From IMG/VR virus record IMGVR_UViG_3300022752_004592, positions 1 to 30,593 of that record: a stretch of DNA of 30,593 bases, one strand, 5' to 3'. Positions 14,666 through 24,712 of this stretch are shown here, piece after piece. The notes beneath the pieces were generated by a model. The model was not told the DNA's origin. It did not search any database and saw nothing but the letters and a program-made list of their open reading frames with translations. Source of the DNA: a virus. Numbering within the stretch: the first letter of the stretch is position 1; every line of letters begins with the position of its first letter. A program made the position numbers and the translations under genes.

Positions 14666-14739
14666 TGCTCGTTGTCAGGATTGAACTGACCTCTGCCGAT
14701 TTATGAGATCGGTCCCTTCAACCAGATGGGTAAACGAGC
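14666..14739 (-). tRNA. tRNA-Met (anticodon CAT)
   Basis: Complete cloverleaf of 74 nt: acceptor GCTCGTT/AACGAGC, TA at positions 8-9, D-stem CCC/GGG, anticodon stem CCGAT/ATCGG with loop CTCATAA, T-stem GTCAG/CTGAC with loop TTCAATC, discriminator A. CCA is not encoded. A CAT anticodon could also be the lysidine-modified Ile tRNA reading AUA; the presence of a tRNA-Ile(TAT) next door makes Met more likely. Confidence 0.9.
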
Positions 14740-14762
14740 ATTCGCTATTCGCAAATAGCAAA

Positions 14763-14834
14763 TGGGAACACTGGGAATTGAACCCAGACTAAGCCCTTAT
14801 AAGGAGCCCGCTCTAACCATTAAGCTATGCTCCC
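14763..14834 (-). tRNA. tRNA-Ile (anticodon TAT)
   Basis: Cloverleaf of 72 nt: acceptor GGGAGCA/TGTTCCC (one G-U), D-stem GCTT/GAGC, anticodon loop CTTATAA giving TAT, anticodon stem GGCTC/GGGCT with two G-U pairs, T-stem CTGGG/CCCAG with loop TTCAATT, discriminator A. It would read the AUA codon directly, which is common in this AT-rich genome and rare in the host. A small stem-loop (14744-14759) separates it from tRNA-Met. Confidence 0.8.
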
Positions 14835-14841
14835 ATAAAAA

Positions 14842-15075
14842 TCACGATGCTTCTTCGTGATCGGTGTGAATTTTAACTATCTCTTCAAAATCCACATTTG
14901 ATTCTTCACATATTCGTATGACTTTGTTGTAAGGAACCATTATTGCATTTCCGTGCTCACTTTCTATCAAAAATGATTCTCCATTCTCAACTCTGTTTAT
15001 CAGATTATCAAAATCTGCCTGGAATTCTTCGATTGTAAATGATTGAAGTTCTTCGATTTCTTGATTCATTTTCAT
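14842..15075 (-). CDS. Phd/YefM-like antitoxin-type protein
   Basis: A 77-residue acidic protein starting MKMNQEIEELQSFTIEEFQ; a start at the second ATG (15069) is also possible. The arrangement of an N-terminal helix, DFDNLINRVENGESFLIESEHGNAIMVPYNKVIRI, matches the Phd/YefM antitoxin fold, in which residues like RVENGE-FLI---GN-IAVMV form the DNA-binding beta sheet and helices. No partner toxin is beside it: the next features are tRNA-Pro upstream and tRNA-Ile downstream. An orphan antitoxin could neutralise a host toxin or repress transcription. The upstream sigma-70 promoter at 15188-15216 would produce it together with tRNA-Pro. Confidence 0.68.
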   Translation of the reverse strand: MKMNQEIEELQSFTIEEFQADFDNLINRVENGESFLIESEHGNAIMVPYNKVIRICEESNVDFEEIVKIHTDHEEAS

Positions 15076-15091
15076 AAAGTGAGTTTTATGA

Positions 15092-15163
15092 TCGGGGTGA
15101 CTGGGATCGAACCAGTGTCTTCTTGCTCCCAAAGCAAGCCGTCTACCGCTGACTTACACCCCG
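15092..15163 (-). tRNA. tRNA-Pro (anticodon TGG)
   Basis: Cloverleaf of 72 nt with acceptor CGGGGTG/CACCCCG, anticodon stem CTTGC/GCAAG and loop TTTGGGA (anticodon TGG), T-stem ACTGG/CCAGT with TTCGATC loop, discriminator A. The 3' end is 17 nt before the start of the antitoxin-like gene. Confidence 0.93.
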
Positions 15164-15187
15164 TTTTTGTGTTTTGAATGTATGATT

Positions 15188-15216
15188 ATTATACCTAGGA
15201 TCGTAACAACTGTCAA
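15188..15216 (-). promoter_or_regulatory. Sigma-70 promoter for tRNA-Pro unit
   Basis: TTGACA (15216-15211), 17 nt, TATAAT (15193-15188): perfect consensus. It reads into tRNA-Pro, the antitoxin-like gene and the Ile/Met tRNAs. The 68 bp between this promoter and tRNA-Ser (15217-15283) contain no other feature I can support. Confidence 0.92.
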
Positions 15217-15283
15217 GATTGCTTTATAAAGACTCAACCAAACTTGACTTACTGTTAAAGTTTCTATTATTTTTAAGGTAATA

Positions 15284-15367
15284 CGGAAGGGGTGGGATTC
15301 GAACCCACGGTGCTCGTCACACGACAGTTTTCAAGACTGTTGCCTTAAACCACTCGGCCACCCTTCC
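15284..15367 (-). tRNA. tRNA-Ser (anticodon TGA)
   Basis: Class II tRNA of 84 nt: acceptor GGAAGGG/CCCTTCC, anticodon stem ACAGT/ACTGT with loop CTTGAAA (anticodon TGA), a long variable arm (GTG-TGACGAG-CAC region), T-stem GTGGG/CCCAC with TTCGAAT loop, discriminator G. CCA is not encoded. Confidence 0.93.
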
Positions 15368-15379
15368 AAATAAAAGTTC

Positions 15380-15631
15380 TTAACGAACTTCAAAATCAAG
15401 TCGCTTTACTTTACGTTGGCGACGAGCTTCTTGCCAAGCAATGTCTTCTGCAGAAAGAATTGGTGGTTTTTTATTTTTTATGTATGAGTTTAACATGACA
15501 ATTTGAGATAAGTCAACCGCAGAAATTCTATCTCCACAAATTGTAGCCATATTTGGACATCCACAACTCACAACTTTAGTCGGACTTCCTATTAATTCTT
15601 TGTTACATTCTTTGCATCTGATTGAAATCAT
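15380..15631 (-). CDS. Small zinc-ribbon-like protein
   Basis: An 83-residue protein starting MISIRCKECNKELIG. A CKEC pair (6-9) and a CGCPN pair form a plausible zinc-binding knuckle, followed by ISAVDLSQIVMLNSYI and a basic C-terminus (WQEARRQRKVKRLDFEVR). The ATG at 15631 lies 2 nt after the Dps stop and avoids a start inside it. No precise function; nucleic-acid or protein binding is likely for a zinc ribbon with a basic tail. Likely transcribed with dps from the late box at 16084-16091, ending in the tRNA-Ser. Confidence 0.75.
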   Translation of the reverse strand: MISIRCKECNKELIGSPTKVVSCGCPNMATICGDRISAVDLSQIVMLNSYIKNKKPPILSAEDIAWQEARRQRKVKRLDFEVR

Positions 15632-15633
15632 GA

Positions 15634-16071
15634 CTATTCCCTCAAAAATGATCTTAACATCCAAACAAATTTTCCATGTGTTTCTATTATTCCTTGAACT
15701 AAATTGGAAGTAGCATATAATCTTTGATCATCAGATTTTTCTGATACTTCGGTCAAAGTTTCGATTAGTTTTTTATTGTCAGCAAGCAACTGACTAATCA
15801 TCGATTCTGCAGTTGAGTTGGAAAGTGCTTCGGGTATGATCGAAGTTTCTGCAACTCTACTAATTGGCCCAACAATTTTCATGCGAAGATATCGCATATG
15901 CTCTGAAAGTTTGTCAATCTCTTCAAACATCGTATTATATTGTTCACCAAAAACTGTATGAAGTTGATAAAAATCTGAGCCCACAACATTCCAATGATAT
16001 ATCCAGGTTTTTTGAAACAAACAAAAAAGACTGGTTTGAGATTTGTGCAGTAATTCGTATAATTCGTCCAT
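15634..16071 (-). CDS. dps: Dps-type ferritin (DNA-binding iron-storage protein)
   Basis: A 145-residue ferritin-like protein. The Dps signature IYHWNVVGSDFYQLHTVFGEQY...EEIDKLSEHMR is intact. The intersubunit ferroxidase ligands His26, His38, Asp53 and Glu57 have the same spacing as His51, His63, Asp78 and Glu82 of E. coli Dps. Dps dodecamers oxidise ferrous iron with peroxide and may coat DNA, protecting against Fenton damage. The basic N-terminal DNA-binding tail of E. coli Dps is missing; the protein starts directly in the first helix, so iron and peroxide removal is more likely than DNA coating. A late box lies 13 nt upstream, so it may be made late when photosynthetic oxidants accumulate. 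Confidence 0.88.
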   Translation of the reverse strand: MDELYELLHKSQTSLFCLFQKTWIYHWNVVGSDFYQLHTVFGEQYNTMFEEIDKLSEHMRYLRMKIVGPISRVAETSIIPEALSNSTAESMISQLLADNKKLIETLTEVSEKSDDQRLYATSNLVQGIIETHGKFVWMLRSFLRE

Positions 16072-16083
16072 TATTTTTTTAAG

Positions 16084-16091
16084 TATTTATC
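16084..16091 (-). promoter_or_regulatory. Late promoter for dps
   Basis: GATAAATA (16091-16084) matches the late box in seven of eight positions and sits three bases after the 3' end of tRNA-Val and 12 nt before the dps ATG. Confidence 0.65.
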
Positions 16092-16094
16092 AAG

Positions 16095-16166
16095 TGGGCG
16101 ATACTGGATTCGAACCAGTGACCCTCTCCTTGTAAGGGAGACGCGCTACCGCTGTGCCAATCGCCC
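16095..16166 (-). tRNA. tRNA-Val (anticodon TAC)
   Basis: Cloverleaf of 72 nt: acceptor GGGCGAT/ATCGCCC, anticodon stem TCTCC/GGAGA with loop CTTACAA, T-stem ACTGG/CCAGT with TTCGAAT loop, discriminator A. Confidence 0.95.
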
Positions 16167-16170
16167 AAGG

Positions 16171-16243
16171 CTGCCCCACTTGGACTCGAACCAAGAACCC
16201 CAGAGTTAACAGCTCCGTGCTCTGCCAATTGAGCTATAGGGCA
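16171..16243 (-). tRNA. tRNA-Asn (anticodon GTT)
   Basis: Cloverleaf of 73 nt: acceptor TGCCCTA/TGGGGCA (one G-U), anticodon stem CGGAG/CTCTG with loop CTGTTAA, T-stem CTTGG/CCAAG with TTCGAGT loop, discriminator G. Only four bases separate it from tRNA-Val. Confidence 0.94.
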
Positions 16244-16269
16244 ATTCAATTAAGAACCCAAAGGTTCAG

Positions 16270-16341
16270 AGCGGATGACCCGATTCGAACGGGCGACGAA
16301 CTGCTTGGAAGGCAGCCATTCTACCACTGAATTACATCCGC
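16270..16341 (-). tRNA. tRNA-Gly (anticodon TCC)
   Basis: Cloverleaf of 72 nt: acceptor GCGGATG/CATCCGC, anticodon stem GCTGC/GCAGT with loop CTTCCAA, T-stem CCCGT/TCGGG-type with TTCGAAT loop, discriminator T. It is the first gene after the promoter at 16352-16380. Confidence 0.94.
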
Positions 16342-16351
16342 ATTTGAGACA

Positions 16352-16380
16352 ATCATAAATCTTTTATATTTGATTGTCAA
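16352..16380 (-). promoter_or_regulatory. Sigma-70 promoter for Gly-Asn-Val tRNAs
   Basis: TTGACA (16380-16375), 17 nt, TATGAT (16357-16352). The -35 box begins one base after the 3' end of tRNA-Ile(GAT), the same arrangement as at 14659-14666. Confidence 0.85.
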
Positions 16381-16381
16381 G

Positions 16382-16453
16382 TGGGAAATGGTGGATTTGA
16401 ACCACCGACCTTTCGATTATCAGTCGAATGCTCTACCCCTAAGCTAATTTCCC
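16382..16453 (-). tRNA. tRNA-Ile (anticodon GAT)
   Basis: Cloverleaf of 72 nt: acceptor GGGAAAT/ATTTCCC, anticodon stem TTCGA/TCGAA with loop CTGATAA, T-stem GGTGG/CCACC with TTCAAAT loop, discriminator A. Confidence 0.94.
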
Positions 16454-16456
16454 ATA

Positions 16457-16529
16457 TGGGTCAAGTGAGACTCGAACTCACGACTTACAGGTTAAAAGCC
16501 CGCTACTCTACCAACTGAGTTATTAACCC
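16457..16529 (-). tRNA. tRNA-Lys (anticodon TTT)
   Basis: Cloverleaf of 73 nt: acceptor GGGTTAA/TTGACCC, anticodon stem GCGGG/CCTGT with loop CTTTTAA, T-stem GTGAG/CTCAC with TTCGAGT loop, discriminator A. Confidence 0.93.
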
Positions 16530-16532
16530 TGG

Positions 16533-16605
16533 CGCTTCAGGTTGGATTCGAACCAACGGCTAACCGCTTAGAAGGCGGATACTCTGTCCCCTGAGTTACT
16601 GAAGC
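16533..16605 (-). tRNA. tRNA-Arg (anticodon TCT)
   Basis: Cloverleaf of 73 nt: acceptor GCTTCAG/CTGAAGC, anticodon loop CTTCTAA flanked by CCGC/GCGG, T-stem GTTGG/CCAAC with TTCGAAT loop, discriminator G. It reads AGA, a codon typical of AT-rich phage genes. Confidence 0.94.
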
Positions 16606-17036: not shown

Positions 17037-17065
17037 AAAAAAAGGGGAGTTCTGCAGCACTCCCC
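17037..17065 (-). terminator. Rho-independent terminator after rlpA-like gene
   Basis: GGGGAGT/ACTCCCC 7-bp stem (17065-17059 with 17050-17044), 8-nt loop, followed by seven T residues that run directly into the ATG of the next gene (TTTTTTTATG). Confidence 0.85.
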
Positions 17066-17067
17066 AA

Positions 17068-17075
17068 TATTTATC
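17068..17075 (-). promoter_or_regulatory. Late promoter overlapping terminator region
   Basis: GATAAATA (17075-17068) lies between the RlpA-like stop and the terminator. A start six bases beyond the box (about 17062) falls inside the 5' arm of the hairpin, so late transcripts would not form the terminator. Confidence 0.6.
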
Positions 17076-17080
17076 AAATA

Positions 17081-17443
17081 CTATAAAGATGCATAGCAGA
17101 TGTTAGCGACTCCTTGTCCAGGTGAAGCAATAGAAGAGAAAGCACCATAGGATAGGTCAAGATCTCTACCACCCACATAAGGTCCTCGATCATTTACACG
17201 CACAATTACCGATTTACCATTCGATTGATTTGTCACTCTTAATCTAGTACCAAATGGTAACCATCGATGTGCTACTGATTTGCCATAAGCATTAAATATT
17301 TCCCCATTAGCAGTTGTCTGTCCATGATATCCATCACCGATTCCATAATGTGATGCGAGGGAACATCCGCTCGCTGCCTTTGCTTGAAGGGGTGCCAATC
17401 CTGAAATAGCAACGGCAAAAATTGAAAGTGTTTTAAAAAGCAT
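17081..17443 (-). CDS. Secreted RlpA-like double-psi beta-barrel protein
   Basis: A 120-residue protein: signal peptide about 1-24 (MLFKTLSIFAVAISGLAPLQAKA|AS) followed by one RlpA-type double-psi beta-barrel. The core ASHYGIGDGYHGQTTANGEIF, SVAHRWLPFGTRLRVTN and VIVRVNDRGPYVGGRDLDLS matches the family; His59 and Asp85 correspond to the catalytic pair reported for the lytic transglycosylase RlpA. There is no lipobox or SPOR domain, so it is soluble in the periplasm. It may loosen peptidoglycan at lysis or alter the wall of the infected cell; the role is inferred. The ATG at 17443 is preferred over an upstream TTG because it begins the signal peptide. Terminators lie on both sides. Confidence 0.85.
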   Translation of the reverse strand: MLFKTLSIFAVAISGLAPLQAKAASGCSLASHYGIGDGYHGQTTANGEIFNAYGKSVAHRWLPFGTRLRVTNQSNGKSVIVRVNDRGPYVGGRDLDLSYGAFSSIASPGQGVANICYASL

Positions 17444-17542
17444 TAAAATTGATAGAACTCTACATCCCAATAGAAAAAGCGCACTTCCCCCCTTTCAGAG
17501 GGCAATCTCCTGGGCTCTAATTGTCACTCAAAGTCTCATAAT
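17444..17542 (-). other. Leader region of rlpA-like gene
   Basis: About 100 bp between the terminator at 17543-17570 and the RlpA-like start. It contains a G-run (GGGGGG) and CCTTTC-type motifs but no good sigma-70 or late box close to the start. It is probably the 5' leader of transcripts beginning at the promoter at 17575-17603. Confidence 0.4.
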
Positions 17543-17570
17543 AAAAAAGCAATCTTTTTAAGGATTGCTT
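17543..17570 (-). terminator. Rho-independent terminator after the 17600 gene
   Basis: AAGCAATC/GATTGCTT 8-bp stem (17570-17563 with 17554-17547), loop CTTAAAAA, followed by six T residues. It ends transcripts of the small genes 17600-18348. Confidence 0.8.
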
Positions 17571-17574
17571 AAAC

Positions 17575-17603
17575 ATTATAAGTGATTATTTAGGGATTGT
17601 CAA
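17575..17603 (-). promoter_or_regulatory. Sigma-70 promoter for the rlpA-like gene
   Basis: TTGACA (17603-17598), 17 nt, TATAAT (17580-17575): perfect consensus. The -35 overlaps the stop of the 17600 gene. The expected start (about 17568) falls inside the 5' arm of the terminator at 17543-17570, so a new transcript cannot form the full hairpin. Confidence 0.9.
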
Positions 17604-17773
17604 TGCTCTGGGTCTAAGGAAACAATTTCAAGCTCATCGTCTTCGAATTCAATCCACTCACAAAACTCTGCAAGAATGGCACGAGCATCTTCTTTTGAAA
17701 TTTTTTTGTTGGCAGCACGATCTATAGACCACGATCTTACATGTGCCACAATGTCTTCAGTCGTTGCTGTCAT
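17600..17773 (-). CDS. Small acidic protein, unknown function
   Basis: A 57-residue protein MTATTEDIVAHVRSWSIDRAANKKISKEDARAILAEFCEWIEFEDDELEIVSLDPEH (shown in parts: helical N-terminal half, strongly acidic C-terminal half WIEFEDDELEIV). It overlaps the end of the GIY-YIG-like gene by 17 nt. A longer in-frame start at 17989 is rejected because it would lie across the body of that gene and gives low-complexity sequence. No family recognised. Confidence 0.7.
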   Translation of the reverse strand: MTATTEDIVAHVRSWSIDRAANKKISKEDARAILAEFCEWIEFEDDELEIVSLDPEH

Positions 17774-18200
17774 AATAATCTTTTCGGTAGTACCTTGAGA
17801 GGATGTTGCTATTGTAAAACGCTGGGACTCCTTTGTCAAGGGACTCTGTGAGGACATTATTGACGAAGAGCTGTCGTGTCTCTTCGTAGTTTGTTTTGCC
17901 CTTTGTTTTATGTAATGATAGGATAGTTCTACTAAAATTTTCTCTGCCAAATTTGATAATGTCTTCTTTAAGCTCTGGACAAGACCCATAATAATTCTTC
18001 CAATCTGATTCTGCTTTGACTTTGCGATTCTTGCCTTTTGGTGTTCTAAATTGCCACAGATATTTTCTACCTATGTATTTTCGGCCATTGAGTTTGTTTT
18101 CTATTATATAAACAAATCCAAAATAGTCTTGAATATCGGACGAAGTAAAAGATGCCCCATTATACATCCAAGGATTTTCATAGTCAATATCTATACTCAT
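17757..18200 (-). CDS. GIY-YIG-like nuclease domain protein
   Basis: A 147-residue protein with the GIY-YIG signature near the N-terminus: FGFVYIIENKLNGRKYIGRKY (residues 27-47; YII at 31-33 and YIG at 42-44, with a following Arg45). WYYGSCPELKEDI and KTNYEETRQLF resemble the later helices and the acidic residue of the fold. Free-standing GIY-YIG proteins in T4-like phages include homing endonucleases such as the Seg group, but this protein is short, lacks an obvious DNA-binding tail and I recall it as widely conserved in cyanophages, so a housekeeping nuclease role is possible. It overlaps its upstream gene by 17 nt. Confidence 0.8.
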   Translation of the reverse strand: MSIDIDYENPWMYNGASFTSSDIQDYFGFVYIIENKLNGRKYIGRKYLWQFRTPKGKNRKVKAESDWKNYYGSCPELKEDIIKFGRENFSRTILSLHKTKGKTNYEETRQLFVNNVLTESLDKGVPAFYNSNILSRYYRKDYYDSND

Positions 18201-18348
18201 CTATGATGTCAAGAACTTCATTCAGATATTTATGAGCAAGAACCTTTGGATTCGTTATAATTTGATTTACTTGATCCCCATATAACTTTTGCTTTAATTT
18301 CAATACACGAACTTTGATTTCGTCTTTACTCAGTTGATTTCTGGGCAT
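18184..18348 (-). CDS. Small basic protein, unknown function
   Basis: A 54-residue gene beginning ATGCCCAGAAATCAACTG; the product MPRNQLSKDEIKVRVLKLKQ continues with a helix and ends EVLDIIDEYRY. It is basic and helical in the first half. It overlaps the GIY-YIG-like gene by 17 nt, and its ATG directly follows the T-run of the terminator at 18349-18376. I recall similar short genes next to nrdB in cyanophages, but no function is known. Supported by length of the open frame, overlap pattern and coding character. Confidence 0.72.
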   Translation of the reverse strand: MPRNQLSKDEIKVRVLKLKQKLYGDQVNQIITNPKVLAHKYLNEVLDIIDEYRY

Positions 18349-18376
18349 AAAAAAGGGGGAGTGTTGATTACTCCCC
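18349..18376 (-). terminator. Rho-independent terminator after nrdB
   Basis: GGGGAGT/ACTCCCC 7-bp stem (18376-18370 with 18362-18356), loop AATCAAC, followed by six T residues that join directly to the ATG at 18348. It ends the primase-nrdA-nrdB transcript. Confidence 0.88.
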
Positions 18377-18384
18377 TATCTATA
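18377..18384 (-). promoter_or_regulatory. Late-like box upstream of the nrdB terminator
   Basis: TATAGATA (18384-18377) differs from the late box at one position. A start at about 18371 would fall in the 5' arm of the terminator, as at 17068-17075. The mismatch makes this tentative. Confidence 0.4.
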
Positions 18385-24681: not shown

Positions 24682-24712
24682 AAAAAAGGAGACCCCACTC
24701 TGAAGTCTCCTT
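24681..24712 (-). terminator. Rho-independent terminator
   Basis: AAGGAGAC/GTCTCCTT 8-bp stem (24712-24705 with 24693-24686), loop TTCAGAGTGGG, then seven T residues continuing into TATAAATA. It ends transcripts of the upstream small gene. Confidence 0.85.

Follow-up and report, generated by a model that had tools for sequence, protein, structure and literature searches.

In phage T4, early read-through RNA of genes e, soc, 49 and I-TevI folds into a hairpin in which the ribosome site is concealed (PMC3014915, PMC2988022). For e and I-TevI, which have been described in detail, late RNA lacks the 5′ part of the hairpin and is translated (PMC3014915, PMC2988022), and the late RNAs of e and 49 are reported to start inside the inhibitory hairpin (PMC3014915; PMC2988022). 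T4-like phages also possess PeSLs, which the account of Arbiol 2010 and Comeau 2014 given in PMC4503421 presents as composite early promoter/stem-loop cassettes.

The stretch of DNA analysed here (the window) is a 30,593-base IMG/VR virus fragment (IMGVR_UViG_3300022752_004592) that matches Synechococcus phages S-PM2 and S-CREM1 in sequence. It carries nrdA, nrdB and primase genes on its minus strand and comes from a T4-like cyanophage. A PhotoRC-II RNA (386–482) and ten clustered tRNA genes (14666–16605) were also found on the minus strand, with a second perfect sigma-70 promoter, TTGACA-17-TATAAT, inside the tRNA cluster at 15216–15188. Sites A, B and C and the junction at 24712–24674, all on the minus strand, combine a promoter with a hairpin (Table 1). 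Below we show how B and C compare with the T4 switch, and where A and 24712–24674 depart from it.

Promoter boxes and hairpins at sites B and C

The anatomy of sites B and C is established. Site B reads GATAAATA, two T, GGGGAGTGCTGCAGAACTCCCC, seven T and ATG, confirming the late box before a terminator that a first-pass annotation had placed there (box, 7-bp stem, T7 and ATG). Site C reads TATAGATA, GGGGAGTAATCAACACTCCCC, C, six T and ATG; the annotated order of late-like box and terminator is found here too, the box being a variant with one mismatch to the late consensus. A GC-rich stem followed by a T-run, as expected of an intrinsic terminator, is present at B, C and 24712, and in weak form at A (−8.4 kcal/mol). 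We found no −35 element at B or C, and Rfam matched no known RNA at the hairpins. Among relatives of site C, conservation starts at the box.

In the numbering of T4 late promoters, −13 is the first T of the box (PMC2988020). With the first base of the cyanophage box likewise taken as −13, +1 falls six bases past the box, so that the predicted starts, 17062 at B and 18371 at C, both lie within the 5′ arm. The full stems, with free energies of −13.8 kcal/mol at B and −11.9 kcal/mol at C, collapse to −3.5 and 0 kcal/mol, respectively, in RNA begun at the predicted +1. The first-pass annotation had put +1 in the 5′ arm at all three sites and had the new RNA lack half the stem; T4 spacing and this collapse in ΔG bear out both claims at B and C, and neither extends to A (see below).

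The 3′ arms at B and C are CTCCCC-like, with the AUG 6–7 nt beyond the stem (the two are in contact in some relatives), and no Shine–Dalgarno sequence was found within the 3′ arm at either site. Just 3′ of the box stands a GC-rich GGGG, unlike the AT-rich stretch reported past the box of T4 late promoters (PMC2988020), and given this departure the promoter may be weak.

Table 1. Positions of promoter elements, hairpins and T-runs at sites A, B and C and at 24712–24674 of the window.
Site	Feature	Position	Strand	Remarks
A	Sigma-70 promoter TTGACA-17-TATAAT	17603–17575	minus	TTGACA 17603–17598, TATAAT 17580–17575
A	Late-type box CCTAAATA in sigma-70 spacer	17594–17587	minus	Likely dual early/late promoter of rlpA
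A	Hairpin AAGCAATCCTTAAAAAGATTGCTT, then TTTT	17570–17547	minus	8 bp, 3 GC; foot of new transcript
B	Late-promoter box GATAAATA	17075–17068	minus	Promoter-like box; ATAAATA biased to positions upstream of ORFs in cyanophage DNA
B	Hairpin GGGGAGTGCTGCAGAACTCCCC	17065–17044	minus	7 bp, 5 GC; compensating changes in relatives
B	T-run T7	17043–17037	minus	ATG 17036–17034 of phrog_3316 gene directly after
C	Late-like box TATAGATA	18384–18377	minus	Adjoins stem; one mismatch to late consensus
C	Hairpin GGGGAGTAATCAACACTCCCC	18376–18356	minus	Predicted +1 (18371) in 5′ arm
C	Tail CTTTTTT	18355–18349	minus	Then ATG 18348–18346 of 54-aa phrog_566 gene, downstream of nrdB
24712–24674	Terminator stem and late box TATAAATA	Stem 24712–24686, box 24681–24674	minus	12-bp stem; T-run runs into box

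Recurrence and conservation among cyanophages

Our main set of relatives was 2.63 Mb of T4-like cyanophage DNA, made up of the window and 131 pieces taken from 18 records, and contained 1,099 late boxes matching [AC]TAAATA. Three contigs of the 0.8-Mb replication set had been pre-chosen for carrying a late in-arm site, and a third set of loci represented mostly one genomic region. Expected counts were obtained from dinucleotide shuffles. Thresholds for stem score and T-run were chosen manually, and the later sigma-70 and intact-terminator counts used a tighter criterion for the T-run. Given shuffle-based expectations and orthologues that are not independent, p-values are optimistic.

Both forms of the late box are strongly oriented upstream of ORFs, with sense:antisense ratios in two cyanophage DNA sets of 182:11 and 151:4 for ATAAATA and of 63:1 and 77:3 for CTAAATA; the genome-wide strand bias of ATAGATA is weak. 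In the 2.63 Mb, 17 terminator stems begin at −3 to +3 nt relative to a late box compared to 0.6 expected, so that this spacing is not a random occurrence in relatives; relatives of B and C keep it nearly unchanged and with covarying stems. The combination of late box, stem, T-run and close ATG was found 18 times versus 0.03 expected (ATAGATA boxes counted too), and the replication set yielded six late in-arm cases versus 0 expected, its three contigs pre-chosen for one such site included. When 2.9 million viral contigs were scanned for box, hairpin and TTTT, at least 123 cases emerged; among the matches listed, 77/123 are followed by an ATG ORF, compared to 3/71 with permuted boxes (p about 1e-17), and one permuted-box match (L409) is itself an orthologous CTAAATA module. 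ATAAATA is the rarest 7-mer of five A and two T in the cyanophage DNA set, yet the commonest beside terminator stems (p = 5e-7). This rarity, together with the permuted-box controls, rules out A-tract bias as an explanation of the box.

Late boxes do not use the in-arm spacing exclusively: an intact terminator lies within 25 nt downstream of 17 late boxes (~9 after removal of site A orthologues and sigma-70-carrying terminators), and we therefore rejected exclusivity. Outside site A, and pooled with the replication set, in-arm stems at late boxes nevertheless outnumber intact terminators by 20 to 10 (p = 2e-5), or by 17 to 10 once pre-selected cases are left out (p = 2e-4, with orthologues not fully independent). 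Terminators whose whole stem the promoter's own RNA would carry are under-represented. Overall, late boxes show start-in-arm geometry in ~10 gene contexts and sigma-70 promoters in ~8.

The position of the box relative to the stem is tightly kept within each family. At site C the box is flush against the stem (offset 0) in 59/73 distinct modules, with TATAGATA, TATACATA, GATAGATA or CTTAAATA as the box, and at site B, whose S-PM2 counterpart lies at 117799–117831, the distance stays at 0–3 nt. Stem pairs 1–6 covary both with and without a T-run, above all through G-C to A-T swaps. Outer pairs that covary sit 5′ of the predicted +1 and could not form in RNA begun at the box; that they are under selection speaks for RNA arriving from upstream. 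Median stem energies in the two families range from −11.5 to −13.0 for the full stem versus 0 to −3.2 from +1.

The T-run is less constant. Although a T-run of 5–7 follows 44/46 distinct site C hairpins of the first set, box, stem and nearby ATG are kept without one in 38/113 distinct modules of the phrog_566 and phrog_3316 families (23/73 for site C, 15/40 for site B). The constant part is accordingly promoter box, stem and start codon, with termination an addition; the T-run is not conserved along with the stem in the manner of an intrinsic terminator, and termination as the constant function, as in the insulator of the first-pass annotation, is not supported. In T-less modules the stem often lies 0–5 nt from the ATG, named examples of T-less modules being S-SM2 (TTAAATA, GGGGAAGTTAACTTCCCC, TC, ATG) and Bellamy. 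Genomes whose phrog_566 gene overlaps its upstream neighbour or comes directly after it have no such module (e.g. L016 and L024, and also Syn9 and P-SSM2, in which the gene overlaps nrdB).

Site A, its leader and other terminator–promoter layouts

Site A does have the perfect sigma-70 promoter annotated previously (TTGACA, 17-nt spacer, TATAAT). CTAAATA is located within the spacer in 43 of the 46 site A relatives that have a promoter, and site A is likely a dual early/late (sigma-70/late) promoter of rlpA. Its stem begins 4 nt past the −10 element, and a start at the expected +1 (~17568, the third base of the arm) costs at most two A-U pairs, changing ΔG from −8.4 to only −6.6 kcal/mol. In nearly all relatives the hairpin starts 3–9 nt past −10, and the offset is 7–9 in 25/42, so that in most of them the new RNA keeps the whole stem; the S-PM2 counterpart has no hairpin. 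With the stem essentially intact in the new RNA and S-PM2 devoid of one, site A was rejected as a start-in-stem site. It is also the only site of the window at which the PeSL combination of a strong sigma-70 promoter and a terminator stem-loop is present in form.

Site A and the rlpA start are separated by a conserved structured leader (window 17536–17444, minus strand) with 16 predicted pairs, eight of which show compensatory double changes among 32 relatives (CCCA/TGGG versus CCGT/ACGG). The leader also occurs in S-PM2, and model R1 finds it in loci L213 and L229. Rfam gave no match to it, for which reason a glutamine riboswitch was dropped; the leader is possibly an undescribed cis-regulatory RNA. 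Also in this part of the window, a phrog_447 gene with homing-endonuclease matches (17757–18200) and the next gene, phrog_23981 (17600–17989), overlap by >200 bases in different frames.

At 24712–24674, the late box does grow out of the terminator T-run as annotated. This is, however, no further case of nesting, the order being the opposite one, but an ordinary terminator-then-promoter junction, a separate layout by which the same gene separation is achieved. Late boxes 3–12 nt past a terminator stem are the commonest junction (52 vs 1.3 expected), and T-runs leading into late boxes number 19 versus 0 in the replication set.

Nesting was also observed with sigma-70 promoters. In a strict count of ~400 strong promoters, 12 terminator stems are in-arm (before +1) compared to three intact within 25 nt, with 0 expected of either; outside site A and pooled with the replication set the counts are 11 and 2 (p = 1.5e-4). 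Examples are Syn9 psbD/gp219 at 168293–168348, S-SKS1 after pstS, S-SM2 SSM2_226/227, Bellamy 235/236 and S-PM2 psbA/F-CphI, and the third set of loci, mostly from one region, contained no sigma-70 nesting outside site A. In many cyanophage sigma-70 promoters (L176, L180, L181, L195, L230, L479 and others), a terminator hairpin has the −35 TTGACA as its loop, and its T-run makes up the −35/−10 spacer. The class of stems ending before −10, which includes these very compact composites, counts 32 members versus 2.6 expected. In S-PM2, a triple junction after psbA (136594–136690; L459, L531) combines a sigma-70 promoter, a terminator hairpin and a late box arising from the T-run. It precedes the homing endonuclease F-CphI and is overlapped by the antisense Cyanophage Functional RNA 1.

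A proposed hairpin gate and its alternatives

Applied to T4, the scan used on the cyanophages picks up genes e and 49, whose stems lie at offsets of −3 and −1 from the box; gene e was placed by annotation, and the other match we take to be gene 49 from its start. As in the T4 e/49 switch, a late box (a variant one at C) abuts or overlaps a hairpin directly upstream of a gene at B, C and their relatives. The late RNA would likewise lack the 5′ arm, which in the cyanophage modules is predicted from the −13 numbering and the collapse in ΔG, and not at site A. In contrast to T4, cyanophage stems hold neither a Shine–Dalgarno sequence nor the AUG, most modules carry a T-run and so can terminate, and some use sigma-70 instead of a late promoter. 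Because the 3′ arm lacks a Shine–Dalgarno sequence, we liken the modules to the T4 switch without classing them as members of it. With intrinsic terminators, B, C and 24712 share a GC stem followed by a T-run, but the 5′ arm of the cyanophage modules carries the start of the downstream promoter, and relatives can do without the T-run. Like the modules, PeSLs, as far as PMC4503421 describes them, are composites of promoter and terminator at gene junctions. Of eight cases found in RB49, four have the stem before the promoter, whereas B and C have a late-type promoter with the stem behind its box.

B and C are most likely hairpin gates that disarm themselves in the manner of T4 e/49 and that in the window phage would also terminate transcription, and we think it fairly probable that both are start-in-stem gates whose gene is expressed solely from its own promoter. 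The function that we infer joins a predicted transcription start, termination, a translational block and timing. A putative promoter box (gp55-type late at B, a late-like variant at C) abuts a strong hairpin 6–7 nt before the start codon. RNA from upstream (from rlpA before B and nrdB before C) would contain the entire hairpin and, in the window, also a U-run, and would mostly terminate there; where it read on, the neighbouring stem would keep the start codon blocked. RNA initiated at the box would begin 3–5 bases into the 5′ arm, form no stem, and so be elongated and translated.

Overlap of terminator and promoter could also reflect pure compaction, the two being squeezed into 30–40 bp with no functional coupling between upstream and downstream gene. 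Cyanophages do exhibit several overlapping layouts, among them the abundant T-run-into-late-box junctions (52 vs 1.3) and the class with the −35 as hairpin loop (32 vs 2.6), and in Syn9 the psbD stop TGA stands directly before TATAAT. Yet positions that leave the whole terminator in the promoter's own RNA are under-used, with both sigma-70 (11 in-arm vs 2) and late promoters (20 vs 10), and modules that have lost the T-run still keep box, stem and start codon together, which makes compaction by itself unlikely in our view. The original proposal, that all sites are passive insulators at which upstream RNA is terminated and new RNA passes, accords with the strong stems and T-runs at B and C and with the near-constant T-run of the first-set site C hairpins; we judge it quite improbable, as the site A stem is retained in the new RNA and about a third of B- and C-family modules have no T-run.

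The hairpin might instead be a protective 5′-terminal stem-loop of the new mRNA, with the true start upstream of the stem. Such an arrangement would suit site A, where sigma-70 transcripts would start at the stem foot in most relatives (those at offset 7–9) and 7/42 hairpins lack a T-run, but the S-PM2 site A has no hairpin, and at B and C the stems lie only 0–3 nt from the box, which places a T4-spaced +1 inside the arm. We regard this explanation as very improbable. Returning to the hairpin gate, we propose, as a tentative extension, that T4-like cyanophages may employ, at gene junctions in general and with sigma-70 as well as late promoters, a version of the T4 hairpin switch that acts as a transcription terminator. 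Terminator and promoter would then be one 35-bp element, each start would disarm its own terminator, and T-less relatives would show interconversion with a translational gate.

The gate would connect the T4 late-promoter hairpin switch with composite promoter/terminators, both of them known already, and a self-disarming terminator would serve as a useful small insulator part. Behind cyanophage genes such as psbD, psbA, pstS and nrdB, the proposed gate would offer compact phage genomes a way to keep adjacent genes apart in time at no cost in DNA.
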